Position numbers and translations under genes: made by a program. 52,780 bases of DNA from an uncultured Paracoccaceae bacterium (GTDB taxonomy: Bacteria; Pseudomonadota; Alphaproteobacteria; Rhodobacterales; Rhodobacteraceae): positions 1-52,780 of the forward strand of contig CANLND010000024.1 in the NCBI GenBank assembly GCA_947492585.1, in the 5' to 3' direction. Numbering within the stretch: position 1 is the first letter of the stretch; every line of letters begins with the position of its first letter. This document shows, one piece after another, positions 5,211 through 32,402 of this stretch. The notes beneath the pieces were generated by a model. That model saw nothing but the letters and a program-made list of their open reading frames with translations. It searched no databases and had not been told where the DNA came from.

Positions 5211-6248
5211 TTAGTTCAGAGGAATTTGAACACCTGTGGCAACGCCAACAGTGTCATTCCAACGTTTGCCCCAGTCACCACCTGCGCGCTCTGCCCAATC
5301 TGGCAGCACTTCAGAGACAAGGATGCCGCGTGCTGTGTCAACGTCAGCCTGTGTCACGGGAACCAGTTTCATTCCGCGTTTGTCACTGGGGCATTCACCC
5401 TCGCCAGTTAAACATGCGATATCTGTGGCCAGCGCGTTTTGGGCTGTTTCCCATGCAGGCGTTTCCAGATCCGCTGTTACAGCGGCCTGAATGGTTGTCT
5501 GTTGTTCAGACGTCAGATCGGTCCATTTGTCCAAATTGATCGCTGTCACAACGGGATCCCAACCACCAAGCGGTACGGGCATCAGATGGGTGGAAACTTC
5601 CCACCAACCGGCACTATAGCCCGAGCCAGCACCGGTCACGGCACAATCGACGACGCCTTTTTGCAAGGCGCCAGGAACTTCGCCAAAGCTAATGCTGACG
5701 GCTTCTGCCCCCAATGCTTCTAGCAGCTTACCGGTCATACGCCCGGAGGCACGGATTTTCAGACCTTTGAGGTCTTCTAGCGCGGCAATCTCGGCGTTAC
5801 AGAAAACAACCTGCGGCGGATAAGGGGCAACGCCCAGCACCTTGGCGTTAAAGACATCTGCATAGATATCATCGATCATCGGACGAGCAGCTTCGACCAT
5901 AACCTTGGCCGCGGCAGCATCGGTGGCAATAAGGGGAACGTCCAGGCCCTCCAGCGCCGCAGAATCTGCAACCGCATAGTCCGCAACGGTCATGCCAACG
6001 TCGAACACGCCATCTGACAGCATGCGGAACACGTCGCCGCCCTTGATGCCCATCTGATCATGCGTTGTCAGTGCTGCGGTGATGCCGCCTTGGCTCGCCG
6101 CAGGCATTTTTTCGTCCCAGAACGGTTTCTCATACTGCTTGTGCAGGGGCAGGCCGCTCCAGCTGCCGACGACGGAAAGCTGTTCGGCGTGAACCGCAGC
6201 GCCGGTCAGGGCCAGCATGGCGGTCAATAAGCCTGTCGAATGTTTCAT
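5211..6248 (-). CDS. TRAP transporter substrate-binding protein (DctP type)
   Basis: This is a 345-residue periplasmic binding protein with a Sec signal peptide (about 1-21, cleavage after AVHA). The family's central segment is present: LKGLKIRASGRMTGKLLEALGA, whose Arg normally makes a salt bridge to a substrate carboxylate, followed by FGEVPGALQKGVVDCAVTG. The ligand is probably an organic acid or a carboxylate-bearing amide, but identity cannot be predicted. It is the second gene of the operon, 26 nt downstream of DUF1445, and precedes the two permease genes. Confidence 0.93.
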   Translation of the reverse strand: MKHSTGLLTAMLALTGAAVHAEQLSVVGSWSGLPLHKQYEKPFWDEKMPAASQGGITAALTTHDQMGIKGGDVFRMLSDGVFDVGMTVADYAVADSAALEGLDVPLIATDAAAAKVMVEAARPMIDDIYADVFNAKVLGVAPYPPQVVFCNAEIAALEDLKGLKIRASGRMTGKLLEALGAEAVSISFGEVPGALQKGVVDCAVTGAGSGYSAGWWEVSTHLMPVPLGGWDPVVTAINLDKWTDLTSEQQTTIQAAVTADLETPAWETAQNALATDIACLTGEGECPSDKRGMKLVPVTQADVDTARGILVSEVLPDWAERAGGDWGKRWNDTVGVATGVQIPLN

Positions 6249-10672: not shown

Positions 10673-11971
10673 ATGGAAAATTTGCTCCAGGCGATCACCG
10701 TCATCGCTGTCCTTTTTGGCCTGCTTGGCATGGGGGTCTGGGTGGGTGTCACTTTGATCATCTGTGGGTTTGTGGTCATCACGTTTTTCACCTCGACCGC
10801 CAGCGGCCCGATCTTTGCGACTGTTGCCTGGGGGTCGACCGCCAGTTGGACGCTCACGGCCCTTCCGTTGTTTATCTGGATGGGGGAAATCCTGTATCGA
10901 ACAAGCCTTGCAAAAGACATGTTCAAAGGCCTGAGCCCCTGGGTGCAAAACCTGCCCGGCCGATTGGTGCATGTGAACGTGGTTGGCTGCGGGATCTTCG
11001 CGGCCGTCAGCGGGTCGTCGGCAGCAACCACGGCGACGATTGGCCGAATTTCGCTGCCTGAACTCAAAAAACGCGGGTACGATGAAAAGCTTGCGATTGG
11101 GACGTTGGCAGGATCGGGCACCTTGGGGCTCTTGATCCCACCGTCGATCATCATGATCGTCTATGGAGTCGCTGCGCAGGTGTCCATCAACCGGTTGTTT
11201 GTCGCCGGTGTTATTCCCGGCATATTACTGATGGCCCTGTTTTCAGGCTATATCATGCTTTGGTCGATGAAAAACAAAACCAAAGTGCCGGCGGAAACCG
11301 AAACCCTGTCCCTTTGGGGGAAAGTTCAGCGCCTCAGATTGTTGATCCCGGTTGTAGCGTTAATTTTCGCCGTGATCGGTTCCATCTACACAGGGGTTGC
11401 AACCGCAACCGAAGCGGCGGCTTTGGGGGTTGTCGGGTCTTTGGTCATCGCTGCTTTTGCTGGCTCGCTCACGACCAAGAGCTTTTTCGACAGCTTACAA
11501 GGCGCCGCTCGGTCGACCTGCATGATCGCGTTCATCCTGTTGGGGGCGGCGTTTTTGACAAATGCAATGACCTTCTCTGGGTTGCCCGCAGATCTGTCAG
11601 CATGGATCGTCGGCCTCGACCTGAACCACTTTAGCTTGATCGCCGTGCTGACGGTTTTCTTCATCCTGATGGGCTGCATTTTGGACGGTATTTCGATTGT
11701 GGTCCTGACGACTTCGGTCATCCTGCCCGCGGTGAAAGCCGTCGGAATAGACCCGCTGTGGTTCGGCATCTATCTGGTCTTTGTCGTCGAAATGGCACAG
11801 ATTACACCACCGCTTGGCTTTAATCTGTTTGTGATCCAGGGGCTTACTGGAAAGAATATTCTGGAAATTTCCAAAATGGTTCTGCCCTTTTTTATCCTTA
11901 TGCTTTTGGCAACCGCGATCATTACTGTGTTTCCGTCGCTGGTGACATGGCTGGTCTTTGTAGGTAAATAA
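10673..11971 (+). CDS. TRAP transporter large permease (DctM type)
   Basis: The 432-residue multi-helix membrane protein carries DctM landmarks: SGSSAATTATIGRI (about 123-136), GSGTLGLLIPPSIIMIVYG (about 146-164), TATEAAALG (near 245) and EMAQITPPLGFNLFV near the C-terminus. It completes the second TRAP transporter. Its stop is followed 2 nt later by the start of the NHL-repeat gene, so the two are translationally close and co-transcribed. Confidence 0.95.
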   Translation: MENLLQAITVIAVLFGLLGMGVWVGVTLIICGFVVITFFTSTASGPIFATVAWGSTASWTLTALPLFIWMGEILYRTSLAKDMFKGLSPWVQNLPGRLVHVNVVGCGIFAAVSGSSAATTATIGRISLPELKKRGYDEKLAIGTLAGSGTLGLLIPPSIIMIVYGVAAQVSINRLFVAGVIPGILLMALFSGYIMLWSMKNKTKVPAETETLSLWGKVQRLRLLIPVVALIFAVIGSIYTGVATATEAAALGVVGSLVIAAFAGSLTTKSFFDSLQGAARSTCMIAFILLGAAFLTNAMTFSGLPADLSAWIVGLDLNHFSLIAVLTVFFILMGCILDGISIVVLTTSVILPAVKAVGIDPLWFGIYLVFVVEMAQITPPLGFNLFVIQGLTGKNILEISKMVLPFFILMLLATAIITVFPSLVTWLVFVGK

Positions 11972-18594: not shown

Positions 18595-19029
18595 TTAACC
18601 TCCCAACACATGGCGGATGACAAAGACTGTGAGGGCCGTGGCGATCATAAAACTTAGGGTGGCCACCAAGGAACGCGGAGACAGGCGCGCCAGTCCGCAG
18701 ACCCCGTGACCCGAAGTGCAGCCCGCGCCAAAGGTCACGCCAAGTCCCACCAAAAAGCCGCCAACAGCCAACATTCCGGGCGGCATGGGGACCTGTACCG
18801 TGGGCAATGCGCCCGTCAGCAACCACAGCACGCCGGGGCCGCAGATCATCCCCAGCAGAACCGCCATGCGCCAGGACCAGTCTTGCCTGTTTTCTGGCAA
18901 AAGGGTGCCTGCCAGAATGCCGGTGGCGCCCATGATGCGCCCAATGCTGGCCATCAATAATACCGCGGCCAGCCCTATCAGGCCTCCGCCTAGGGCGGAA
19001 CTTAGGGGGGTGAACTCTGTTTCGATCAC
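18595..19029 (-). CDS. YeeE/YedE family sulfur transport membrane protein (first half)
   Basis: The 144-residue membrane protein has about four helices and the motif GAGCTSGHGVCGLARLS (about 99-115), with two Cys residues thought to pass sulfane or thiosulfate sulfur in this family. Together with the downstream DUF6691 protein it should form one full-length transporter. It is preceded on the same strand by a Crp/Fnr-type regulator and a DUF2892 membrane protein, a common sulfur-metabolism grouping in Rhodobacterales. Confidence 0.88.
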   Translation of the reverse strand: MIETEFTPLSSALGGGLIGLAAVLLMASIGRIMGATGILAGTLLPENRQDWSWRMAVLLGMICGPGVLWLLTGALPTVQVPMPPGMLAVGGFLVGLGVTFGAGCTSGHGVCGLARLSPRSLVATLSFMIATALTVFVIRHVLGG

Positions 19030-19127
19030 GAAGGTTACTCCTCATGGGAAGGACTGCACAGCAGGGTGTACAGTGTTCTGATGTCGTCGAAGGGTCGGTT
19101 GGGGGGAGCGGCGCCAGCGTGCCGTGT

Positions 19128-19817
19128 TTAGGAAGCGGCTTTCGCCAAGTCTTGCAATGCGGTGGCGTTGCAGACTTCGATTTGGCCACGCGTCTGACGG
19201 ATCCAGCCTCGGCGTTGGAATTCCTGCAATTGGCGTGAAATCACCTCGCGCGCGGTGCCCAGTTCAACCGATAGTTTCTGATGTGTGGTGCGGATAAGGT
19301 CGGTGTGATCCGACAATGCGATCAGACACTGCGCCAGCCGCACGTCAATGCGTTGAAAGGCGACCTCATCCACCATGCGGAACAGATCGGTGATCCGTTT
19401 TGAAAAGGCTGCAAAGACAAAGTTGCGAAAGGACTTAGATTCCGCCACCAGCGTGTCAAAGACTGCGCGCGGCAAAGCCGCTGCATGAATTTCGGTCTCG
19501 GCAATGCCATCGGCGGCATAGTCCTCATAGGCCAGCAGGCAGGCGGTTGTCAGCACGCAGCTTTCTCCGGCCTGAATACGGTACAGGACAATTTCATGCC
19601 CGGTTTCCGATACCTGTTGAACACGCACGGTGCCCTCTAGAAGAAACAGCATGTTTTCCGGCGACTTCCCCGGCCCGAACACCAGCGTATCACGGGGCAG
19701 TGTCAACAGGGCGGCGTGACGTAACAGTAGGTGTTGCGTGTCGGCCTCCAGCTGGGACAGACCGGGGAAGCGGTCAACCCAGGGACGCTTGTCATGCTTG
19801 GTGTGCGGGGATGTCAT
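19128..19817 (-). CDS. Crp/Fnr family transcriptional regulator
   Basis: From the internal ATG at 19817 the product is 229 residues: a cyclic-nucleotide-type beta-barrel domain (about 15-125, with FLLEGTVRV and IQAGESC), a dimer helix, and a C-terminal HTH (HQKLSVELGTAREVISRQL, about 178-196). The N-terminal Cys ligands of the FNR iron-sulfur cluster are absent. Two Cys in ESCVLTTAC could act as a thiol switch. I prefer ATG 19817 over 19859 because only the former has a GGA-like ribosome site and family homology starts nearby. It lies upstream of the YeeE pair and probably controls it in response to sulfane sulfur or redox; that part is inference. Confidence 0.88.
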   Translation of the reverse strand: MTSPHTKHDKRPWVDRFPGLSQLEADTQHLLLRHAALLTLPRDTLVFGPGKSPENMLFLLEGTVRVQQVSETGHEIVLYRIQAGESCVLTTACLLAYEDYAADGIAETEIHAAALPRAVFDTLVAESKSFRNFVFAAFSKRITDLFRMVDEVAFQRIDVRLAQCLIALSDHTDLIRTTHQKLSVELGTAREVISRQLQEFQRRGWIRQTRGQIEVCNATALQDLAKAAS

Positions 19818-19883
19818 GGGGCAATCCGGTGTGTGGTTCTGGGGCAACCCTAAGCCCATGCATTAAAAGAGCCAAGATCGCAG

Positions 19884-21924: not shown

Positions 21925-23031
21925 TTAGACGAATTCGCTCATCTCGACGACACGTTTTTCTGCGATGGAGCGCTGGGCAGCCATGCCCATTTGCACCGCG
22001 ATTTTTCCGTCATTCAGGGTGACATCCGGCTGCGTGCGTTCGCCGCGTACGACTTCGGCAAAGCCCTGATGTTGGTAAAAGGTTGATCCGTTGTGATCTC
22101 CAGCCGCCAGCAGGGCAGGGTCGACGGGGATTTCACGCAGTTCGGGGCCTTTGGGCGCACGGGGGCTGACGATCAGCTGCGGAATAGGGGCGTCGCCAAG
22201 GTGTTCGGGCCAGAACCGACCGGGGCCGGGCACCAGGGCCTCGATCTTGCCTTTGGGGCCTACGGCGGCGATCTCTTCCTGATAGCGGGCGCCTTCGGCA
22301 AACATGCACAATTCCAGCATCGCGCGGGCGCCGTTGGCAAAATCAACAATCACATAGCCATTGTCGATGATATCCGGCGTTTCCCCATCATAGGTTTCGT
22401 CCTGATGGTTGATGTCTGCTGCGCCGGACGCCATCACGCGCAGCGGTTCAGATTTTAGTGTCAGGCGCATCAGGTCAAAGAAGTGGCAGCATTTCTCGAC
22501 AAAGGTGCCACCAGAATAGCGGTTAAACCGGTTCCAATCGCCGACCTTTTGCAAAAACGGAAAGCGGTGCTCGCGGATGGTCAGCATCGAAATGCCCCCC
22601 GTGGCCGCCTCGACCTCGTCCAGCAATGCCGCCACGGGGGGCATATAACGGTATTCCATCGCCACCCAGACTGGCGCGGGGTAGTTCTCTTGGAATGTGG
22701 TCAGGCGGGTGATGTCATTGGGATCGGTGAACAGCGGTTTTTCGACCAATACGGGCAGGGGGCGTTTCTGCGCCAGCAGTTCCAGCTGGTCCATGTGGCA
22801 GTGATTGGGGCTGACGATGACCAGACAGTCCAGATTTTCCACCGCCAACAGCGCATCGATGCTGTCGACCAATTGGGCGGTGGGGGCGAACTCTTTTGAA
22901 ATCCGGGCCATGTCAGCGTCGGGTTCATAGATCGCTGCAACTGATGTGTCGGGCAGCAGCGCGATGTTGCGCAGGTGTTCTTGTCCCATCATGCCGCAGC
23001 CGATGATGCCATATGCAATGTGACGAGCCAT
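21925..23031 (-). CDS. Gfo/Idh/MocA family NAD(P)-dependent protein, possible NAD-dependent sulfoquinovosidase
   Basis: The 368-residue protein has an N-terminal Rossmann domain with GIIGCGMMG (8-16), the VEKPL motif (about 96-100), and a C-terminal beta-sheet domain with GGTFVEKCCHFFDLMRL around 173-189. The family includes sugar dehydrogenases and also NAD-dependent glycoside hydrolases; a sulfoquinovosidase subgroup (GH188, SqgA) is known. The neighbourhood is a sulfosugar-type set (FMNH2 monooxygenase, flavin reductase, aldo/keto reductase), which makes that subgroup attractive, but sequence alone does not prove it. An ordinary inositol- or sugar-type dehydrogenase is the alternative. It lies 9 nt after the GntR gene, in the same transcript. 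Confidence 0.85.
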   Translation of the reverse strand: MARHIAYGIIGCGMMGQEHLRNIALLPDTSVAAIYEPDADMARISKEFAPTAQLVDSIDALLAVENLDCLVIVSPNHCHMDQLELLAQKRPLPVLVEKPLFTDPNDITRLTTFQENYPAPVWVAMEYRYMPPVAALLDEVEAATGGISMLTIREHRFPFLQKVGDWNRFNRYSGGTFVEKCCHFFDLMRLTLKSEPLRVMASGAADINHQDETYDGETPDIIDNGYVIVDFANGARAMLELCMFAEGARYQEEIAAVGPKGKIEALVPGPGRFWPEHLGDAPIPQLIVSPRAPKGPELREIPVDPALLAAGDHNGSTFYQHQGFAEVVRGERTQPDVTLNDGKIAVQMGMAAQRSIAEKRVVEMSEFV

Positions 23032-23040
23032 CTTCGTTCC

Positions 23041-23751
23041 TTAGATTAGGCGTTGTACGTAGCGCGCCTGATTGGTGTCAAACCAGGTGCGGGAATATTC
23101 CACCGCGACGGGGCTTTGGGCCCAGCTGAGGCGTTCGATGTAACCGGTGATTTGCCCCGCAGGCAGGCCAAATTCATCCGGGGACCAGCGCGGGACCGCG
23201 CCGATTGATACGCTGTCTTGCGCACGCGAAATCCAAAACCCCAATGTGCGACGATAAAACTGATACAGGGAGTCCTGTAGCGCATCGGGGGCAATGCACC
23301 CCGCATCGCCATCCAGCCAAATTTCTTCAACCGCGATGGGGGTCTGGTTCAAAAAGCGCAAGCGACGAATCCGTGTCGCCTCTTTGGCGGTGCCAAAATC
23401 CGGCAAGTCAGACGGCTTGTCGCAACGATCGACAGACAACACATCGGCGGTGGGAAGACCGCCGCCATTGATCAGTTCCAGCCTGAACATCGAATAGATA
23501 CTTTCGACGCTGGTGCTGTGGCGGATGTAGTTTCCGGATCCTTGAATGCGCTCCAATAACCCCTTTTTTTCCAACTCGTTCAGTGACTTTCGCAACGTGC
23601 GCACAGTGGTGCCATGGTGTTTGGCCATGTCGCGTTCCGGGGGCAAGCGTTCGCCGTCCACCAATCGACCCGCCGCAATTTCGCGGATCAGCATTTCGCT
23701 GATTTGAACATAAATCGGAAGAGCAGTGGGGGTGGTTCGGCGGGGTGTCAT
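23041..23751 (-). CDS. GntR family regulator, HutC/UTRA type
   Basis: The 236-residue regulator has a GntR winged HTH (about 10-75) with the typical LPPERDMAKHHGTTVRTLRKSL run of positions, and a UTRA effector-binding domain (about 95-230). UTRA domains bind sugars, sugar phosphates or amino acids. I chose the ATG at 23751 because the HTH starts 8 residues later; a longer frame extends back through the intergenic operator region and is not credible. It is divergent from the monooxygenase/TRAP operon and co-transcribed with the Gfo/Idh gene, so it probably controls both. Confidence 0.9.
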   Translation of the reverse strand: MTPRRTTPTALPIYVQISEMLIREIAAGRLVDGERLPPERDMAKHHGTTVRTLRKSLNELEKKGLLERIQGSGNYIRHSTSVESIYSMFRLELINGGGLPTADVLSVDRCDKPSDLPDFGTAKEATRIRRLRFLNQTPIAVEEIWLDGDAGCIAPDALQDSLYQFYRRTLGFWISRAQDSVSIGAVPRWSPDEFGLPAGQITGYIERLSWAQSPVAVEYSRTWFDTNQARYVQRLI

Positions 23752-23776
23752 GGGTTCATTCGATGATGCAGAAAAA

Positions 23777-23801
23777 TTGATACACCATTGATCTACATCA
23801 A
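23777..23801. promoter_or_regulatory. Probable operator in the divergent GntR/monooxygenase promoter region
   Basis: TTGAT-CTAC-ATCAA (23788-23801) is a perfect palindrome in the 101-nt divergent intergenic region, and another TTGAT half-site lies 11 nt before it (23777-23781). The spacing of three half-sites and the position next to a GntR gene suggest its binding site. It is not proven. Confidence 0.5.
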
Positions 23802-23852
23802 AGAGCGCGCTACGCAAGAGAAAGATTTTTGGGAATATCGGAGGAATCACCC

Positions 23853-25007
23853 GTGACAGTCGTGCCAATTACCTCGCCGGATCTTGATGCTGTTGAGGTC
23901 TCCTGGTTCGCCGCCCTGTGTTCGGATGACTATCAGTTTCTGGGTGTTCCTGACGGCGATTTGCGGTCGTCATGGGCGCATTGCTCGGACATTGTAAAAG
24001 AAGCCGAAGCCCAAGGGTTCCGCAATATTTTGTGTCCGTCGTCCTATCAGGTGGGGCAGGACACGCTGTCCTTTGTGGCGGGCTGTGCACCTATTACCAA
24101 TAAGATCAACATGCTGGCGGCTGTGCGCTGCGGTGAGATGCAGCCGATCATGTTGGCACGTACCATCGCGACGCTGGATCACATGTTGGAAGGCCGATTG
24201 ACGGTGAATATCATCTCGTCAGATTTCCCCGGCGAAAAGGCAGACAGCACCTATCGCTATCAGCGGTCACGTGAAGTGGTTGAGATCCTGAAACAGGCCT
24301 GGAGCCAGGACGAAATCACCTACAAAGGCGAGGTCTATGATTTTGAAGGCCTGACAACTGACCCTGTGCGCCCCTATCAAACGGGCGGTCCGTTGTTGTA
24401 TTTTGGGGGCTATTCGCCGGCGGCCTTGGATCTGTGTGGCCAGCATTGCGACGTCTATTTGATGTGGCCAGAACCCAAGGAGCAGCTGGCTGATCGTATG
24501 AGGGCTGTGCACGCGGTTGCGGAAAAATATGATCGCACGTTGGATTATGGTCTGCGCGTTCATTGTATTGTGCGTGACACAGAAGCCGAAGCACGCGAAT
24601 ATGCTGATTACATTGCATCGAAACTGGATGATGAATACGGCCAGTTGATCCGTGAACGGGCCCTTGATTCCGGTTCGCTAGGTGTATCGCATCAGGCGCG
24701 GGCGCGGGAATTGGCCGATCAGTTCGGGTATGTCGAACCCAATCTGTGGACCGGAATTGGTCGGGCGCGGTCGGGGTGTGGGGCGGCGCTGGTTGGCTCC
24801 ACCGATCAGGTGATGACCAAATTGGAAGAATACAAAAAAATGGGGATGCGGGCCTTTATCCTTTCGGGGTATCCGCACCTCGAAGAAGCCAAACATTTTG
24901 GGGCTCGGGTTCTGCCGAACCTGAAAACCTGCTCGCTGCCCGAGGCCTATGGTCGCGTGCCCGTCAGTGCCCCGGCAACCCCTTTGGGTGTAGGAGAACG
25001 CCGCTAA
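23853..25007 (+). CDS. FMNH2-dependent luciferase-like monooxygenase (SsuD/SmoC-like)
   Basis: The 384-residue TIM-barrel enzyme belongs to the bacterial luciferase family on the alkanesulfonate monooxygenase (SsuD) side. Landmarks are PSSYQVGQDTL (about 66-76), CGEMQPIMLARTIATLDHML, the GRLTVNIISSD segment (about 119-129), GGPLLYFGGYSPAALDLC and a C-terminal SGYPHLEEA. Such enzymes cleave C-S bonds of sulfonates with FMNH2 and O2, releasing sulfite. A flavin reductase and an aldo/keto reductase follow in the same operon, matching SmoC-SmoB-SmoA of oxidative sulfoquinovose breakdown. The GTG start lies 7 nt after GGAGGA. An alkanesulfonate or another sulfonate is the alternative substrate. 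Confidence 0.88.
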   Translation: MTVVPITSPDLDAVEVSWFAALCSDDYQFLGVPDGDLRSSWAHCSDIVKEAEAQGFRNILCPSSYQVGQDTLSFVAGCAPITNKINMLAAVRCGEMQPIMLARTIATLDHMLEGRLTVNIISSDFPGEKADSTYRYQRSREVVEILKQAWSQDEITYKGEVYDFEGLTTDPVRPYQTGGPLLYFGGYSPAALDLCGQHCDVYLMWPEPKEQLADRMRAVHAVAEKYDRTLDYGLRVHCIVRDTEAEAREYADYIASKLDDEYGQLIRERALDSGSLGVSHQARARELADQFGYVEPNLWTGIGRARSGCGAALVGSTDQVMTKLEEYKKMGMRAFILSGYPHLEEAKHFGARVLPNLKTCSLPEAYGRVPVSAPATPLGVGERR

Positions 25008-25897
25008 TGCAACGTATTGCACTGAATTCTGATCTGTCCTTCAGCCGTCTCGTCTACGGCATGTGGCGCATCGGTGATGTCGACGACACATCGCCAGCTA
25101 CGGTTGAAGCCAAAATCCAGACCTGTCTGGAACAGGGCATTACGACCTTTGATCAGGCTGACATCTATGGCGACTACGGCGCCGAGGCGATTTTGGGCGG
25201 CGCGATGAAGGCCAACCCCGGATTGCGGAGCCAGATGGAGATTGTCACCAAATGTGACATCGTCGCACCCTGTGGTCGCTATGCAGACAAGCCTGTCAAA
25301 TATTACGACACCTCGCGCGCGCATATCGAACAGTCGGTGGAAACCTCGCTGCGCGAGATGCATATCGAACAGATCGACCTCTTGTTGATCCACCGCCCCG
25401 ACCCGTTGATGGATCACCATGAAACCGGCGCGGCCCTGGATGATCTGGTGGCGTCAGGTAAAGTTCGCGCGGTAGGCGTGTCGAACTTTCGCCCGTATGA
25501 CTGGGATCTGCTGCAGTCTGGCATGAAAACCCAGATGGTCACCAATCAGATCGAAATCTCCCTGTCGGAAATCGCGCCTTTCACCAATGGCGATATCGCG
25601 TTCCACCAAAAAAACGATCAGGCGATGATGGCGTGGTCACCGCTGGGCGGTGGCAGCCTGATGACCGGTGACAGCGCCGTGGCAACCCAGCTGGATAAAA
25701 TTGCAGCGGCTCAGGGTGTGGATCGCGCGGCTGTGGCTGTGGCCTTCCTGCTGCGTCACCCGTCCAAGATCCTGCCGGTTTTGGGCACGAACAATCTGGA
25801 GCGTATCAGCAAGATTTCCGACGCCATGAAGGTGGAGCTGGACCGGGAGACTTGGTTCACCCTGTATGAGGCGGCGCTGGGCACTGAGGTGCCATGA
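25007..25897 (+). CDS. Aldo/keto reductase (SmoB-like)
   Basis: The 296-residue NADPH-type reductase is an (alpha/beta)8 barrel. The catalytic tetrad is readable: Asp in FDQADIYG (about 47), Tyr in the same segment (about 52), Lys in VTKCD (about 81) and His in LLIHRPDP (about 127). GVSNFRPYDWDLL and WSPLGGGSLMTG are typical cofactor-side loops, in the style of YdhF. It starts at an ATG that overlaps the monooxygenase stop (TAATG). In the oxidative sulfoquinovose pathway this family reduces 6-oxoglucose to glucose. The same role is plausible here, inferred from context. Confidence 0.9.
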   Translation: MQRIALNSDLSFSRLVYGMWRIGDVDDTSPATVEAKIQTCLEQGITTFDQADIYGDYGAEAILGGAMKANPGLRSQMEIVTKCDIVAPCGRYADKPVKYYDTSRAHIEQSVETSLREMHIEQIDLLLIHRPDPLMDHHETGAALDDLVASGKVRAVGVSNFRPYDWDLLQSGMKTQMVTNQIEISLSEIAPFTNGDIAFHQKNDQAMMAWSPLGGGSLMTGDSAVATQLDKIAAAQGVDRAAVAVAFLLRHPSKILPVLGTNNLERISKISDAMKVELDRETWFTLYEAALGTEVP

Positions 25898-26412
25898 ACA
25901 TTATGACTTCCGCAGCTCCAAAAAGGTTTGTTCCAGATGCAGATAATACCCGCTTGCTGCGGGATGCCTTTGGACGCTTTGCGACCGGTGTAACCATTGT
26001 GACGACCGACAGCCCCGATGGGGCTGTTGCCATCACAGCTAACAGTTTTTCTTCGGTGTCACTCACGCCGCCGCTGGTTCTGTGGGCCCCCGATAAAGCT
26101 TCGCGCCGGTTTCCGTATTTTGAGAATGCGGAGCACTATGCAATCCACGTCTTGGCCACCGAACAAAATGACCTGTGCTGGAACGTTGCCAAAGATCTGG
26201 GCTGCCTGCGTGACATGGATCTGAACCGAAACGTGGAGGGCGTGCCGGTTCTGGAAAATTGTCTGGCGCGGTTCGAATGCCGACGCAGCGCAGTCTATGA
26301 GGGCGGCGATCATATCATCGTTCTGGGAGAGGTTCTGCGTGCTGAAATGCGCGAAGACGGGGATGCTCTGGCTTTTTTCAAAGGCCAGGTCGGGCAATTT
26401 GCCGGAGACTAA
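25894..26412 (+). CDS. Flavin reductase (FMN reductase family)
   Basis: The 172-residue protein is of the flavin reductase-like (split-barrel) family: FGRFATGVTIVTT (about 26-38), ANSFSSVSLTPPLVLW (about 50-65) and GDHIIVLGEV (about 137-146). It would supply FMNH2 to the monooxygenase encoded two genes upstream. The start overlaps the reductase stop as ATGA, so production is translationally coupled. The next gene begins 55 nt later. Confidence 0.92.
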   Translation: MNIMTSAAPKRFVPDADNTRLLRDAFGRFATGVTIVTTDSPDGAVAITANSFSSVSLTPPLVLWAPDKASRRFPYFENAEHYAIHVLATEQNDLCWNVAKDLGCLRDMDLNRNVEGVPVLENCLARFECRRSAVYEGGDHIIVLGEVLRAEMREDGDALAFFKGQVGQFAGD

Positions 26413-26467
26413 GAAAAAGACCCGAGCGCTCTCTGTTTAGTGGGGGCTCGGACAGGGAGGGGACAGA

Positions 26468-27058
26468 ATGAAGCCAGTTTTGGCAGCCACGCATCTATTG
26501 TACGTGGTAAATGACCGACTGCTGATGGCGGGACGGTTTATTGGTGTATTGGCGGTCGGGGCTATGGTTGTCGCGATCCTCGTGCAGGTGTTTTTTCGCT
26601 ATGTGCTGAACAATGCCTTGCCCTGGCCGGATGAAGCCGCACGGTTTTGCATGTTGTGGATGACCGGTCTGATGGCCCCTACGGCGTTTCGCCGCGGTGG
26701 GTTTGTTGCCATTGATACGTTGACGATATTGCTGCCCAAAATGGTTGCGGCGCTGCTGTCATTGGTGCTGCTGATGTTGTCACTTCTGGTGCTCGTTGTG
26801 GCACTGGACATCGGTTACAATGAGGTCACGGGGCTGGGGGGGCGTTTTGCGACGGCTTCTTTGTATGTGCCAACCTCGTTTGGGTTTGATCAATGGTATC
26901 GTGTGCCGCGCAGCTGGATGATGTTGTCGATGGTGGTTGGTCTGGCGCTGCTCATTCTGGTGAATGTCGAACTGATCCTGCATCGTCTGTTGACCCTTCT
27001 GGGGCTGGACGCCGCATTGCCGTCGCTTGACGATGTGACTGTGGGGGGGGCTGAATAA
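26468..27058 (+). CDS. TRAP transporter small permease (DctQ type)
   Basis: The 196-residue protein has four hydrophobic helices and the DctQ pattern VFFRYVLNNALPWPDEAARF (about 42-61). A strong GGGAGGGGACAG ribosome site precedes the ATG. The gene ends with a run of eight G (27043-27050) that also serves as ribosome site for the large permease gene; the stop and next start overlap as TAATG. It belongs to the third TRAP transporter of the window, ordered Q-M-P here. Confidence 0.93.
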   Translation: MKPVLAATHLLYVVNDRLLMAGRFIGVLAVGAMVVAILVQVFFRYVLNNALPWPDEAARFCMLWMTGLMAPTAFRRGGFVAIDTLTILLPKMVAALLSLVLLMLSLLVLVVALDIGYNEVTGLGGRFATASLYVPTSFGFDQWYRVPRSWMMLSMVVGLALLILVNVELILHRLLTLLGLDAALPSLDDVTVGGAE

Positions 27059-28533
27059 TGCTGATTTGGTTTCTGCCCCTGTTTTTGCTGTTTCTCTTGA
27101 TCGGCTTACCGGTCTTTTTTGCACTGCTGTCTGCGCCGGGAATATTGCTGTACCTCAATGGTCAGGAACGCGATCTGACGCTTTTGTACCGCAATCTTTA
27201 CAACGGTATGGACAGTTTCCCACTGATGGCGATCCCGTTCTTTATGTTGGCGGGTGAACTGATGAACAAGGGGGGCATCACGCTGCGCCTTGTGGAATTC
27301 TCGCAGGCCTTGATGGGCCATTTGCGCGGTGGCCTGGCACAGGTAAATATCCTGTCGTCGATCCTGTTTGCCGGTCTGTCTGGATCCGCAGTGGCGGATA
27401 CTTCTGCACTGGGGTCTATGCTGATCCCTGCGATGGAAAAAGAAGGCTATTCTCGTAAATTTGCCGCCGCGATCACTGCCGCCAGCTCTGTCATTGGACC
27501 CATTATTCCGCCGTCGGGCATCATGATCATCTATGCCTATGTGATGGGCGAAAGCGTGGCCGCCTTGTTCCTTGCGGGCATTGTACCGGGTATTCTGGTT
27601 GGCCTTGGTTTGATGGTTATGGTGCGCGCTATGGCAGATAAATACGATCTGCCCGCGGCCAAACGTGTTGTTCTGACAGGGATAGAGTTGGGCCCGGTGG
27701 AATACTGGTTCTCGCTGGCATTGGTGCGTCTGAACCTTGGCCTGCTGTTGGCGCAGTTTGTGCCGTTGGGCGGGGCAGCCACTGGAACCGCCAAGTGGCT
27801 GGCCTTTGGTGGTGCGCTTTTGGCCGCGCATGGCCTGATGCTGGGGGTGCGCCGTATCGTGAGCCATGATTTCCGCATGGTTTGCAAACGGGCCGTGGTG
27901 CCACTGCAAACGCCCATTTTGATCCTTGGCGGTATTTTGGCTGGTGTTTTCACCCCAACCGAAGCCGCAGCCGTAGCTGTGGCCTATGCACTGATCGTTG
28001 CCTTTGGCATCCTGCGGACCATGTCGCTGCGCGATCTGCCCGATGTGCTGATCCGCGCAGGCTTGACCTCGGCCGTAGTGCTGCTGTTGGTTGGTGCGGC
28101 GATGTCGTTCAAGACGGTGGTCAGTCTTAGCCACGCGCCGGAACAGTTGGCTGAATTTATTCTCAGCCTGACAGAAAACCCGCTGATCCTGTTGTTTCTG
28201 ATAAATTTGTTGCTGTTTGTGGTGGGCATGTTCCTGGATGCCGGTCCGGCGATTATTATTCTGGGGCCCATTTTGGGCCCGGTATTTGCGGATCTTGGCG
28301 TGGATTCAATCCACTTTGCCATCATCATGTGTGTGAACCTGACCGTGGGTCTGGCGACGCCGCCCATGGGGTTGGTGCTGTTTGTCGCCTCGGCAGTGTC
28401 ACAGGAGCGCGTGACCACAATTGCACAGGCCATTCTGCCGTTTCTTGCGGTTGAGGTGGCGGTGATCTTTTTGATCACCTTTGTGCCGGAAATTTCCATG
28501 ACCATTCCCCGTCTGACGGGGTTTGCAAACTAA
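27058..28533 (+). CDS. TRAP transporter large permease (DctM type)
   Basis: The 491-residue membrane protein has DctM motifs: FAGLSGSAVADTSALGSMLIP at about 102-122 (landmark Ser, Gly and Asp), IGPIIPPSGIMIIYAY (near 145-160), FTPTEAAAVAVAY (about 299-311) and GLATPPMGLVLFV. It is about 60 residues longer than the other two large permeases in the window, because of an extra segment near 200-265 with additional hydrophobic stretches. That feature marks the sialic-acid/sugar-acid-like and other long DctM subgroups, but the substrate cannot be inferred from it alone. Confidence 0.94.
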   Translation: MLIWFLPLFLLFLLIGLPVFFALLSAPGILLYLNGQERDLTLLYRNLYNGMDSFPLMAIPFFMLAGELMNKGGITLRLVEFSQALMGHLRGGLAQVNILSSILFAGLSGSAVADTSALGSMLIPAMEKEGYSRKFAAAITAASSVIGPIIPPSGIMIIYAYVMGESVAALFLAGIVPGILVGLGLMVMVRAMADKYDLPAAKRVVLTGIELGPVEYWFSLALVRLNLGLLLAQFVPLGGAATGTAKWLAFGGALLAAHGLMLGVRRIVSHDFRMVCKRAVVPLQTPILILGGILAGVFTPTEAAAVAVAYALIVAFGILRTMSLRDLPDVLIRAGLTSAVVLLLVGAAMSFKTVVSLSHAPEQLAEFILSLTENPLILLFLINLLLFVVGMFLDAGPAIIILGPILGPVFADLGVDSIHFAIIMCVNLTVGLATPPMGLVLFVASAVSQERVTTIAQAILPFLAVEVAVIFLITFVPEISMTIPRLTGFAN

Positions 28534-28564
28534 CAATAACGTTCAGAGCATAGGGAGGAAACAC

Positions 28565-29623
28565 ATGCTCAAGAAAGCCTTTAAAACGGTCGCGGTTGCG
28601 GCGCTGATGGCCACAACGGCCCTGTCGGCATCGGCGGCGGATTATACCATTCGTGCCACTGCCAACTCCAATGAAAATGACGAAGACTATGATGGTCTGG
28701 TTGTGTTCAAAAACTACGTAGAGGCGGCGTCAAATGGCGCCATTGAGGTGGAACTGTTCATCGGCACGCAGCTGTGTTCAAATGGCGCAGAGTGCTTGCA
28801 AGGCGTTGCGGACGGCACTGTGGACGTCTACATTTCCACGTCGGGCGGCGCGTCGGGCCTGTTCCCTTATGTTCAAGTTCTGGATCTGCCCTACCTGATG
28901 GCAGATGACCGCGTGGCGGAACATGTGTTGCAGGGAGATTTCACACGCACTCTGCGCGAGATGGCGCTTGAGGATTCTGGTGATCTGATCCGCTTGATGA
29001 CCATCGGTAACACCGGTGGCTGGCGCAACTTTGCCAATACCAAACGGCGTGTGGCTGAGCCTGAGGACATGAAAGGCCTAAAGATCCGCACCGTGGTCGC
29101 AGACCTGCCTCAAGAGCTGGTCAAAGCGCTTGGCGCAGCTCCGACGCCGATCCCGTGGCCTGAACTGTTTACGTCGTTCCAGACCGGCGTGGTAGAGGGG
29201 TCCAAAAACGGCATCACCGATATTATGGGGATGAAGTTCCCGGATGCAGGCCTGCAATATGTGACGCTGGACGGCCATGCCTATATGGGGGCTCTGTGGT
29301 GGATGTCGAACGACAAGTTTAAGGCCATGCCCGAAGATATGCGCCGTGTTGTCGTCGATGGGTTTTACGCGTTGCAGCAGGCGACGTTCGCCTCGCCCAA
29401 GCGTAAATCGATCCAAGCCTATGCTGATTTTGTCGCCGGCGGCGGTGATCTGTATGTCCCGACACCAGACCAAAAGGCCGCATTTAAGGAGGCGGCAGCG
29501 CCTGTTTATGACTGGTTTAAAAGCAATGTGACGCGTGGAGATGCGATCTTTGCCGCGCTGACGGAGGGGGTCGCTGAAGCCGAAGCCGCGATCAATGCGG
29601 ACCGCAACAGCGATCTGAACTAA
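28565..29623 (+). CDS. TRAP transporter substrate-binding protein (DctP type)
   Basis: The 352-residue protein has a signal peptide (MLKKAFKTVAVAALMATTAL, cleaved after SASA or ASAA), and the DctP segment MKGLKIRTVVADLPQELVKA with the ligand-binding Arg, followed by PWPELFTSFQTGVVEG. AGGGAGGA precedes the ATG, which I prefer over an upstream in-frame ATG lacking a signal peptide. Position suggests it delivers the substrate of the monooxygenase pathway, possibly a sulfosugar or its glycoside. Confidence 0.93.
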   Translation: MLKKAFKTVAVAALMATTALSASAADYTIRATANSNENDEDYDGLVVFKNYVEAASNGAIEVELFIGTQLCSNGAECLQGVADGTVDVYISTSGGASGLFPYVQVLDLPYLMADDRVAEHVLQGDFTRTLREMALEDSGDLIRLMTIGNTGGWRNFANTKRRVAEPEDMKGLKIRTVVADLPQELVKALGAAPTPIPWPELFTSFQTGVVEGSKNGITDIMGMKFPDAGLQYVTLDGHAYMGALWWMSNDKFKAMPEDMRRVVVDGFYALQQATFASPKRKSIQAYADFVAGGGDLYVPTPDQKAAFKEAAAPVYDWFKSNVTRGDAIFAALTEGVAEAEAAINADRNSDLN

Positions 29624-29633
29624 GCCAGCTATG

Positions 29634-29665
29634 CAGGGCCGCTTTTGGGAAAGCGGCCCTGTGTC
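29634..29665 (+). terminator. Terminator of the monooxygenase/TRAP operon
   Basis: A perfect 12-bp stem (CAGGGCCGCTTT at 29634-29645 and AAAGCGGCCCTG at 29650-29661) with a 4-nt loop is followed by TGTCTGTG. It lies 10 nt after the dctP stop and clearly closes the operon, though the T-tract is poor. Confidence 0.7.
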
Positions 29666-29814
29666 TGTGTTAAGCGGAGCGCCGTGCGGCGCACAGGTTT
29701 TGGCGCTGGCGCGCCGGCTGACGCGTTACAGTCGCTAATGTGTCTGACTTTTGCGTGTTCATGTTTGAAATACTTTGGGGGAAGGTCCAAAGGGGCAGTA
29801 CCCCCGGCAACGTT

Positions 29815-30282
29815 TCAGCGAAACGGATACATCCAGGGTTTATAATCGGCGATCAAAACATGCGCTTTTTCGATCTCTTCCCGAGACATCTTTTTTACAA
29901 CCTCTTCAAGGCTGATCGCCGCGTCGGGGTCGCCGCCGATGGCGGACAGTGTGTACCACATATAGGCGCGCACCAGATCTTTTTCGACACCGCGCCCGAT
30001 CTCATAATACCAGCCGATACCAGATTGCGCGCCGGGGTGGCCCTTCATGGCGCTGCGCAGATACCATTCAAACGCGCGCTGGTCGTCGCGTTCTACTCCA
30101 AGCCCCATGGCGTACATGACGCCGATCAGCTCTTCGGCATCCGCATTGCCCGAGCGCGCCGCGGGTTCCAATGCGGCTTTGGCCTGTGCAAATTCGCCCG
30201 CTTCCATCAGGTCGCGCGCCGCTTCGATTTCGGCAAAGGCAGGAGACGCACAGAGGGCGAGAACAAGCAGAACAGAGCGCAT
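29815..30282 (-). CDS. Sel1-repeat (TPR-like) secreted protein
   Basis: The 155-residue protein starts with a signal peptide (MRSVLLVLALCASPAFA) and then carries Sel1-like repeats, for instance NADAEELIGVMYAMGLGVERD and the following GAQSGIGWYYEIGRGVEKD unit, with the A-x-x-L-G-x-x-Y and G-x-G-V patterns. Such solenoids mediate protein-protein contacts in the periplasm. I use the ATG at 30282 because the signal peptide begins there; a longer frame reads into the divergent gene. It starts only 6 nt from the inferred start of the cytochrome peroxidase gene on the other strand. Confidence 0.82.
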   Translation of the reverse strand: MRSVLLVLALCASPAFAEIEAARDLMEAGEFAQAKAALEPAARSGNADAEELIGVMYAMGLGVERDDQRAFEWYLRSAMKGHPGAQSGIGWYYEIGRGVEKDLVRAYMWYTLSAIGGDPDAAISLEEVVKKMSREEIEKAHVLIADYKPWMYPFR

Positions 30283-30288
30283 CGGGTT

Positions 30289-31596
30289 TTGGTCCTTTTG
30301 TGGGCCGGGTTTGCGGCCGGTGGTGCGGTGGCGCAGACCTTGCCATCGCCGCTGACAGCGCAGGATTTCCCATCGGTTTCGCAACAACAGGCAGCGCTGG
30401 GCCACCTTTTATTCTATGATAAAATTCTATCGGGCAACAGAAATATTGCCTGTTCGACCTGTCATCATCCCAGCCTGGGCAGCAGCGACGGATTGTCGCT
30501 TGGCGTTGGGGAAGGCGGCAGAGGGTTGGGGCCAAAACGCAGCACCGGTGTCGAGCGGGACCGGATCGAAAAACGCGTCCCACGCAATGCGCCTGCCTTG
30601 TGGAATCTCGGCGCACGGGATCTGCACACGATCATGCACGACGGGCGCATTGCCCGTGATCCAATTTATGGCAACGGGTTCAACTCTCCGGCTGAGGAAT
30701 GGTTGCCGCAAGGATTAGAGAGCCTGCTGGCGGCGCAGGCAGTTTTTCCGCTGACCTCAAAAACTGAGATGGCTGGGGCGTCTGAGGAAAACGAAGTGTC
30801 TGGCGCGGTGAATGATCGGATCGACAAAGGGTGGCCGATCGTTGCAAAACGGGTGCGCACGATCCCGGAATACGGGCGTCGTTTTGTGGCGGCGTTTGAT
30901 CATATCGACACCCCGGAACAGGTCACAATTGTAGAGATCGCAAATGCATTGGCCGCCTTTGAAACGGTAGAGTTTCAAAGTCTTAGCAGTCCGTTTGATC
31001 GCTACCTTGCGGGTGACAGCGCTGCGTTGAACGCACGGCAAAAACGCGGAATGGATTTGTTTTTTGGACGGGCCGCGTGCAGCCGGTGCCACAGCGGTAC
31101 ATTGCTGAGTGATCAGAAGTTTCATGCTCTGGGGCTACCGGCCTTTGGTCCCGGCCGCACCCGCCGGTTTGATCCTTATGCACGTGATGTCGGGCGCATG
31201 GGAGAGAGCGATGATTTGGCTGATGCCTATGCCTTTCGCACGCCCATGCTGCGCAACGTGGCGTTGACGGCGCCCTATGGCCATAATGGAGCGTTTGCCA
31301 CACTAGAGGGCATTCTGCGTCACCATATGGATCCGGTCGCGTCCAATGATAAGTGGCAGCCCAAGGAGGCTGCGTTGCGCCCGGCGCCGTGGCTTATGTC
31401 GATTGATTTTGTCATTCAGTCTGATACCCGTGAAATGGCGCGGCAGGCGGCGGTCCGTCGCCCGGTTTCGCCGTTGCTGGCGGAGGCCGAGATTGGCGAT
31501 CTGGTGGCGTTTCTACATGCGTTAACAGGGCGGACCGAAGCGGATTTGCCATTTGGGGTGCCCAAACATGTGCCCAGTGGACTTCCTGTGGATTAA
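30289..31596 (+). CDS. Di-heme cytochrome c peroxidase / MauG family protein
   Basis: The 435-residue periplasmic protein has two c-type heme sites, C55-S-T-C-H59 and C264-S-R-C-H268 (numbering from the start used here). It shows family signatures NRNIACSTCHHPSLG and TPMLRNVALTAPYGHNGAF. A hydrophobic leader (LVLLWAGFAAGGAVA) precedes the mature part. No ATG or GTG lies near it in frame, so I place the start at TTG 30289; TTG 30298 is possible. Bacterial CcpA reduces hydrogen peroxide with electrons from cytochrome c; MauG-like members oxidise protein side chains. The long open frame upstream is non-homologous and antisense to the Sel1 gene. Confidence 0.85.
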   Translation: MVLLWAGFAAGGAVAQTLPSPLTAQDFPSVSQQQAALGHLLFYDKILSGNRNIACSTCHHPSLGSSDGLSLGVGEGGRGLGPKRSTGVERDRIEKRVPRNAPALWNLGARDLHTIMHDGRIARDPIYGNGFNSPAEEWLPQGLESLLAAQAVFPLTSKTEMAGASEENEVSGAVNDRIDKGWPIVAKRVRTIPEYGRRFVAAFDHIDTPEQVTIVEIANALAAFETVEFQSLSSPFDRYLAGDSAALNARQKRGMDLFFGRAACSRCHSGTLLSDQKFHALGLPAFGPGRTRRFDPYARDVGRMGESDDLADAYAFRTPMLRNVALTAPYGHNGAFATLEGILRHHMDPVASNDKWQPKEAALRPAPWLMSIDFVIQSDTREMARQAAVRRPVSPLLAEAEIGDLVAFLHALTGRTEADLPFGVPKHVPSGLPVD

Positions 31597-31781: not shown

Positions 31782-32402
31782 GTGACTAAGCGTACAGCTG
31801 CCAAGTATAAAATTGACCGCCGCATGGGCGAAAACATCTGGGGTCGTCCTAAGTCCCCAGTAAACCGTCGTGATTATGGCCCCGGCCAGCACGGTCAGCG
31901 CCGTAAAGGTAAACTGTCCGACTTCGGTATTCAGCTGCGCGCGAAGCAAAAGCTGAAAGGTTACTACGGCGACCTGACCGAGAAACAATTCCGCCGCATC
32001 TACGGTGAAGCTGAGCGTGTTAAAGGCGACACCGGTGAAAACCTGATCGGCCTGCTGGAACGTCGTCTGGACGCAGTTGTGTACCGCGCCAAATTCGTTG
32101 CAACTGTTTTTGCTGCACGTCAGTTCGTGAACCACGGTCACGTTCTGGTCAACGGCAAGAAAGTGAACATCCCCTCCTACCGCGTAAAAGAGGGTGACGT
32201 CATCGAAGTGCGTGACAAGTCCAAGCAACTGGCGGTTCTGCTGGAAGCCACTCAGCTGGTTGAGCGCGATGTTCCTGACTACATCGAAGCCGACCACAAC
32301 AAAATGACCGCAACATTCGTTCGCGCACCTGGTCTGGCTGATGTTCCTTACCCGGTCATCATGGAACCAAACCTGGTCGTGGAATTCTACGCGAAGAACT
32401 AA
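31782..32402 (+). CDS. rpsD: 30S ribosomal protein S4
   Basis: The 206-residue protein is the small-subunit assembly protein S4. It begins at GTG and has the N-terminal region with [19 protein letters not shown] (landmarks Lys, Arg and Trp) and [10 protein letters not shown], and the S4 RNA-binding domain (about 95-160) with [12 protein letters not shown] and [19 protein letters not shown]. It has the normal length and is followed by a strong terminator, so it is transcribed singly. In this group of bacteria rpsD is often separate from the main ribosomal operons. Confidence 0.99.

Follow-up and report, generated by a model that had tools for sequence, protein, structure and literature searches.

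A gene cluster in the genome of an uncultured Paracoccaceae bacterium very probably encodes the monooxygenase route of sulfoquinovose degradation (sulfo-SMO), acting on sulfoquinovose (SQ) and its glycosides, and this pathway is the best explanation of the cluster as a whole. The cluster lies on contig CANLND010000024.1 (assembly GCA_947492585.1) of a 3.59 Mb draft genome in 83 contigs, within a stretch of 52,780 nucleotides that is termed "the window" hereafter. A predicted NAD-dependent sulfoquinovosidase of family GH188 (SqgA) and a GntR/UTRA regulator diverge from genes coding for the flavin-dependent monooxygenase SmoC, the aldo/keto reductase SmoB, the flavin reductase SmoA and a tripartite ATP-independent periplasmic (TRAP) importer. 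A preliminary description, made from the letters of the DNA, had proposed a sulfo-SMO cluster with a GH188 enzyme; the clade of the monooxygenase, the SmoB match of the reductase, the scores and site residues of the GH188 protein, the lack of a GH31 match in the genome and the synteny in relatives all bear it out.

The open reading frames (ORFs) and strands between positions 21925 and 29623 were obtained from the ORF list and a Pfam domain search, and they agree with the divergent arrangement and coupled starts described earlier: ORFs overlap at the ATGA motifs at 25004 and 25894 and at the TAATG motif at 27058. The minus strand carries sqgA (21925-23031; N- and C-terminal GFO_IDH_MocA domains) and the regulator gene (23041-23751; PF00392 and PF07702), which is syntenic in relatives. 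On the plus strand, smoC (23853-25007; Bac_luciferase) starts with GTG at 23853, with GGAGG at 23840, and is adjoined by smoB (25004-25897; Aldo_ket_red) and smoA (25894-26412; Flavin_Reduct, PF01613). All three TRAP components are found in one operon, namely the small permease DctQ (26468-27058; PF04290), the large permease DctM (27058-28533; PF06808, 378 bits) and the receptor DctP (28565-29623; PF03480, 183 bits), for which gene context suggests SQ or an SQ glycoside as ligand. By ORF reading dctP begins with ATG at 28565, and the searches used position 28568 onward.

The nearest named relative, as judged by SmoC, is Epibacterium ulvae with 95% identity. Gene order was compared in 80 named loci, which ranked best among 548 confirmed ones. 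Across all loci used in this work, some represent one genome fetched twice (e.g., L033 and L138), and such repeats enter the tree, alignment, operator and identity counts. Of the 79 named loci with at least 2 kb of upstream sequence, 78 have SqgA no more than 10.5 kb from SmoC, and of the 62 with at least 8 kb on the downstream side of SmoC, 47 carry a complete set of dctQ, dctM and dctP. Since both recur near SmoC, the grouping of these genes is not due to chance. In 37 of those 47 TRAP-positive loci, genes coding for a Sel1-repeat protein and a di-heme protein follow, and the conserved unit thus often extends beyond 29623 to 31596. The cluster as initially described is confirmed, and its given end at 29623 leaves out these two genes.

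The monooxygenase scores 714 and 694 bits (residues 1-383) with the PDB entries 7olf and 7oh2, which we take to be SmoC enzymes and with which it shares 79% and 77% identity, compared to 192 bits with 7jv3 and 182 bits with SsuD (1m41/1nqk). In a tree of 40 rows, a single clade (support 93/91) unites the window SmoC and its Roseobacter relatives with 7olf/7oh2, and this clade is adjoined by 11 rows of approximately 50% identity; 7jv3, an annotated ssuD product and a relative of 37% identity are placed beyond a branch with 100/100 support. An alkanesulfonate monooxygenase of the SsuD/MsuD type at 23853-25007 is ruled out by bit scores and tree placement, and the phylogeny upholds the SmoC-like assignment made beforehand. 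At a threshold of E <= 1e-60, SmoC was detected in 167 of 394 genomes of the family and in 22 of 385 genomes of the class. SmoB matches 7bbz, presumably SmoB itself, and 7bby with 407 bits versus 207 bits for the next enzyme, and SmoA reaches 192 bits with the FerA model, which is below the cut-off of 260. The Smo genes also occur in partial sets: two loci (L176, L180) harbour SqgA, SmoB, SmoA and TRAP genes without smoC, and a third (L179, genome G242) carries SqgA and SmoB with only a 53-residue smoC remnant before smoB.

Judged from its sequence, the Gfo/Idh/MocA protein is a GH188 NAD-dependent sulfoquinovosidase, in keeping with the initial proposal. It scores 550 bits with 8zn9, a structure for which the literature search found no describing publication, and 375 and 373 bits with FlSqgA (8qc2) and ArSqgA (8qc3), the PDB codes of which are named in PMC10755693, whereas the next Gfo/Idh enzyme reaches 66 bits. 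Nine residues of the ArSqgA active site as given in that paper are retained, i.e., K107, Y136, R166, L170, K172, E189, H193, H321 and a Glu before HR, which is written as Glu163 in PMC10755693 and placed at 164 by the present alignment. All nine are identical in 145 aligned sequences including the window (110 from SMO loci, 21 from loci resembling the sulfo-Embden-Meyerhof-Parnas pathway, termed EMP-like, and 14 others). The fold is common to dehydrogenases, and the inositol dehydrogenase model TIGR04380 matches with 105.7 bits; yet, this score is far below the cut-off of 355 bits and far exceeded by the GH188 scores, the sulfonate-binding R, L and K are among the invariant residues, and PF01055 (GH31) has no match in the genome. 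A sugar, inositol or SQ dehydrogenase in place of a glycosidase is thus very hard to credit, the inositol dehydrogenase identity being rejected on the scores, and so is a GH31 sulfoquinovosidase encoded elsewhere in the genome. SqgA should act in the cytoplasm, because inspection of its N-terminus revealed no signal peptide and NAD+ use is expected by homology, and therefore the importer would have to carry the glycoside. Agrobacterium possesses a GH31 sulfoquinovosidase, the place of which is taken here by GH188.

The core of the finding is not new, since the combination of SMO and GH188 in Roseobacters is in print: nearly all sulfo-SMO clusters in marine members of the Roseobacter clade, where GH31 is lacking, contain GH188 (Kaur 2023, PMC10755693), and GH188 variants in other clusters have been described (PMC11465081). 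The cluster type put forward as a "marine variant" is accordingly supported, but had already been published. The words TRAP, transporter, peroxidase, heme and Sel1 are absent from the main text of PMC10755693, the figures or supplement of which may show a TRAP system. The sulfo-SMO (sulfo-ASMO) pathway of Agrobacterium tumefaciens and Novosphingobium aromaticivorans likewise employs a flavin monooxygenase, a flavin reductase and an NAD(P)H reductase to yield glucose and sulfite (PMC12890257). Agrobacterium, however, uses an ATP-binding cassette (ABC) importer for SQ-glycerol (PMC9594981), in contrast to the TRAP importer with Sel1 and di-heme genes found here.

Following the published chemistry of the homologues, DctPQM would import SQ or sulfoquinovosyl glycerol, and the cytoplasmic SqgA would cleave the glycoside via a transient NAD+-dependent oxidation at C3, a mechanism shown for GH188 homologues (PMC10755693). 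SmoA would supply reduced flavin, SmoC together with O2 would cleave the C-S bond, releasing sulfite and 6-dehydroglucose, and SmoB would reduce 6-dehydroglucose to glucose. The GntR/UTRA protein may act at a conserved block in the intergenic region between its gene and smoC.

The distribution of the importer was analysed in the 394 family genomes, which represent 393 genera and are counted irrespective of phylogeny; weak DctP matches (G250, G190, G027) and one weak SmoC match (G407) were dropped beforehand. A receptor orthologue is present in 142 genomes, 111 with and 31 without SmoC, while 55 genomes harbour SmoC without this receptor and 197 contain neither gene. A SqgA match was obtained in 136 of the 142 receptor-positive versus 57 of the 252 receptor-negative genomes. 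Within the genus of the window, 10 of 16 genomes searched encode the receptor; among the remaining six, G013, G002 and G007 are SmoC-positive, and G005, G012 and G016 yielded only weak SmoC matches.

The TRAP system is probably an importer of SQ or SQ glycosides, because its receptor recurs without SmoC beside a sulfo-EMP-like gene set and another GH188 homologue. Of the 31 receptor-positive, SmoC-negative genomes, 28 gave a SqgA match, and 27 of the 31 were fetched (all except G031, G100, G167 and G212): 20 EMP-like genomes, picked mostly for a weaker SqgA match of the roughly 50% type, and seven others fetched separately. In 20 of the 27, homologues of a kinase, a LacD-like aldolase, an isomerase and GH188 adjoin the TRAP genes, with a receptor identity of 72-87%. 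One of these loci, L122, encodes PfkB, DeoC/LacD, aldose-epimerase and aldehyde-dehydrogenase domains, and by these domains its gene set appears sulfo-EMP-like. On a DctP tree built with a fast method, at least seven changes between the labels SMO and EMP are required, one of them perhaps due to the distant L184; the starred branches force four changes for SMO and five for EMP, each set against all other rows. Mean identities between the two kinds, within SMO and within EMP amount to 78.1, 83.3 and 76.8% for DctP, 77.0, 84.2 and 77.5% for DctM, and 50.9, 69.6 and 66.3% for SqgA, and hence DctP and DctM hardly track the pathway, whereas GH188 does. The corresponding values are 76.5, 82.0 and 76.8% for Sel1 and 61.5, 69.1 and 63.6% for the di-heme protein. 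The simplest ligand common to both settings of the importer would be SQ or an SQ glycoside.

Several observations weigh against this interpretation of cluster and importer. The TRAP system is not a universal component, as 55 of the 166 SmoC-positive family genomes do without it, and E. ulvae possesses SqgA-GntR-SmoCBA, with the receptor, Sel1 and di-heme genes not found in its genome. A SqgA match was lacking in three of the 31 genomes with the receptor but without SmoC. Seven of the 27 fetched genomes are not clearly of the EMP kind, and most of these seven retain SqgA, SmoB or SmoA without a full SmoC (L177 with SqgA and TRAP but no Smo genes; L181 and L183 with SmoB and SmoA, respectively, beside TRAP; in L182, a contig of 3.6 kb, the di-heme gene is followed by a fragment of a kinase). 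For the isomerase of L122, the only EMP-like locus tested with hidden Markov models, the closest model is NF048012 (sulfoquinovose isomerase), with a score of 252 bits against a cut-off of 700. DctQ is diverged, with 46.9% identity between the kinds versus 64.1% within SMO and 51.6% within EMP. Finally, an exporter of family PF03601 is lacking in the cluster, the sole match in the genome being on contig C4 (TauE-type exporters were not sought).

Alternatively, the sulfo-SMO/GH188 enzymes may be genuine and the TRAP system a mere neighbour that imports some other compound, for instance organic acids or short sulfonates. The nearest solved receptors bind mixed ligands, published work proposes importers of the TRAP type for taurine, sulfolactate and isethionate, and the 55 SmoC-positive genomes mentioned manage without this TRAP. 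Small-sulfonate importers such as the isethionate system (IseP, 8t9t) share the DctP-family receptor and two membrane parts, and IseP ranks among the nearest solved receptors, yet DctP is only 24% identical to IseP, and the ligand proposed here is a sulfosugar or its glycoside. A structure model of DctP of moderate confidence (mean predicted local distance difference test score, pLDDT, 72.6) matches TRAP receptors including SiaP and IseP, which indicates only that the protein is a TRAP receptor. In the literature passages accessible, no link between SQ and a TRAP importer was found; the matches concern cobalt resistance, taurine/sulfolactate and isethionate. On the other hand, the same TRAP is found beside two different SQ gene sets, interleaved on the DctP tree, and the SMO route has no short-sulfonate intermediates. 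Moreover, 24 of 42 TRAP-less SMO loci (some from genomes fetched twice, two being query sources) carry a homologue of a sugar ABC binding protein within 11 kb. An unrelated ligand is therefore quite unlikely, and import of SQ or its glycosides remains preferred. Among the TRAP-less loci, ABC-type neighbours are seen in L141 and L142. Judging by their motifs, we take further genes there to be candidates for a glycerol-3-phosphate dehydrogenase (both loci) and a glycerol kinase (L141), as would be expected if SQ-glycerol were the substrate.

The Sel1-repeat protein (29815-30282, minus strand; PF08238, 64 bits) and the MauG/CCP-like di-heme c-type protein (30289-31596, plus strand; PF03150, 122 bits) belong to the TRAP-type unit. 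The Sel1 gene runs antisense in the gap from dctP to the di-heme gene and starts at 30282, 7 bases from the putative TTG start of the di-heme gene at 30289, and hence transcription of the latter may pass across Sel1; searches for the di-heme protein employed 30388-31596. By its N-terminus, Sel1 is predicted to be periplasmic, and four Trp residues are conserved in 73 of 73 sequences. The di-heme protein harbours two CxxCH motifs, and these as well as His84, His299 and His312 are retained in at least 97% of 76 sequences; His312 presumably falls near the position where bacterial cytochrome c peroxidases (bCCPs) have the Met ligand of the second heme. PF03150 and the two CxxCH motifs are shared with the MauG/bCCP enzymes. 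The protein differs from them in its pairing with Sel1 and in scores below the cut-offs of all three NCBIfam models matched (TIGR03791, 132.7 versus 443.9 bits; TIGR04039, 135.1 versus 362.9; TIGR03981, 254.5 versus 340), and membership in the MauG/MbnH family is thus not indicated by score. Structure modelling of the di-heme protein gave a result too poor for use (mean pLDDT 53).

The occurrence of the pair was compared with that of the importer. Within 10.5 kb of SmoC it occurs in the 37 TRAP-positive named loci mentioned above, but in none of 15 TRAP-negative ones, and it is also present in 17 of the 20 EMP-like loci. In a hand-picked panel of 80 genomes, Sel1 matches (E <= 1e-20) were detected in 35 of 40 TRAP-positive versus 0 of 40 TRAP-negative genomes, i.e., in 16/20 with SMO and TRAP, 19/20 with TRAP without SmoC (16 of these 20 viewed at locus level; the group includes G031, G100, G167 and G212), 0/15 with SMO without TRAP and 0/25 with neither. 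Di-heme homologues of at least 54% identity occur in the same 35 genomes and in G066 and G195, which have SMO without TRAP; matches of 45-51% were regarded as paralogues and are not counted here. In a sample at the order level, Sel1 was found in 64 of 186 genomes; all 24 of known status are TRAP-positive, and 13 Sel1-negative genomes of known status, from the listed part of the negatives, are all receptor-negative.

It is nonetheless a serious possibility, somewhat short of even chances, that the two genes are neighbours moving with the locus or serve general peroxide defence, with no role in SQ metabolism. SQ catabolism has no recognised heme step, Sel1 is missing in five of the 40 TRAP-positive panel genomes and the pair in 10 of the 47 TRAP-positive named loci (within 10.5 kb), and the di-heme paralogues occur in genomes without the cluster, too. 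On plasmids, the three strong Sel1 matches are no more than 0.5 kb away from the receptor gene, and Sel1 was not found on seven of the 10 plasmids with a receptor of at least 60% identity (plasmid records only; chromosomes not searched). Yet, besides the distribution of Sel1, the pair is kept although unlinked from the TRAP genes, at distances ranging from 22 kb to a place on another contig, in five genomes (G061, G098, G122, G167, G366), as is Sel1 alone in G181, G373 and G291, and in L122 the di-heme ORF overlaps the start of the kinase gene by 4 bases. No such pair in SQ gene clusters was found in the literature accessible to search. By analogy with MauG and MbnH, the di-heme enzyme might oxidise the Trp/Tyr-rich Sel1 protein or the receptor in the periplasm, yielding a product needed for the uptake of SQ glycosides, a specific proposal that we consider unlikely.

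The genes around the pair vary among relatives. In E. ulvae (L033/L138, 5598-7001), smoA is directly followed by a homologue of the window gene 31782-32402, presumably coding for ribosomal protein S4, which comes after the di-heme gene in the window; the TRAP, Sel1 and di-heme genes are absent at this site. In Ruegeria TM1040 (L114, 13870-17104), where the unit is located in full on the megaplasmid, a Dabb-domain gene follows dctP, and a YeiH-type exporter (PF03601) gene lies 6 bases after the di-heme gene; it is perhaps the sulfite/sulfate exporter of the unit, missing there in the window. A plasmid of Rhizobium sp. SL42 (L113) carries SqgA-GntR-SmoCBA-TRAP and a putative sulfate exporter without Sel1 and di-heme genes, and the occurrence of the unit on a rhizobial plasmid suggests horizontal transfer.

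The conserved intergenic block, which is also present in the Rhizobium plasmid copy, includes a putative operator between the regulator gene and smoC (23775-23801, AATTGATACACCATTGATCTACATCAA). Among 115 different GntR-SmoC intergenic stretches, 86 contain the 8-mer AATTGATA or its complement, and 54 contain TTGAT-N4-ATCAA, compared to a mean of 0.005 for this second motif after letter shuffling. The latter motif is FNR-like and lies at 23788-23801 inside the block, which is of interest for an oxygen-requiring pathway.

Elsewhere in the window, parts of two further TRAP operons with DctP and DctM domains are located at 5211-6248 (minus strand; near DUF2848, M24 peptidase and amidase genes) and 10673-11971 (plus strand). 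A Sulf_transp protein (PF04143) is encoded at 18595-19859 (minus strand) beside what appears by sequence impression to be a Crp/Fnr-type regulator.

SQ, a sulfur sugar abundant in plants and algae, is produced at a scale of approximately 10 billion tons a year (PMC10755693), and its import route in marine bacteria therefore matters for the sulfur cycle. If the TRAP system is common to two unrelated SQ gene sets, it would provide an uptake marker that is independent of the catabolic route. The Sel1/di-heme pair adds to SQ gene clusters and lends itself to direct testing, and, if the proposed oxidation takes place, the SQ importer would depend on a redox-matured accessory protein common to two unrelated SQ pathways.

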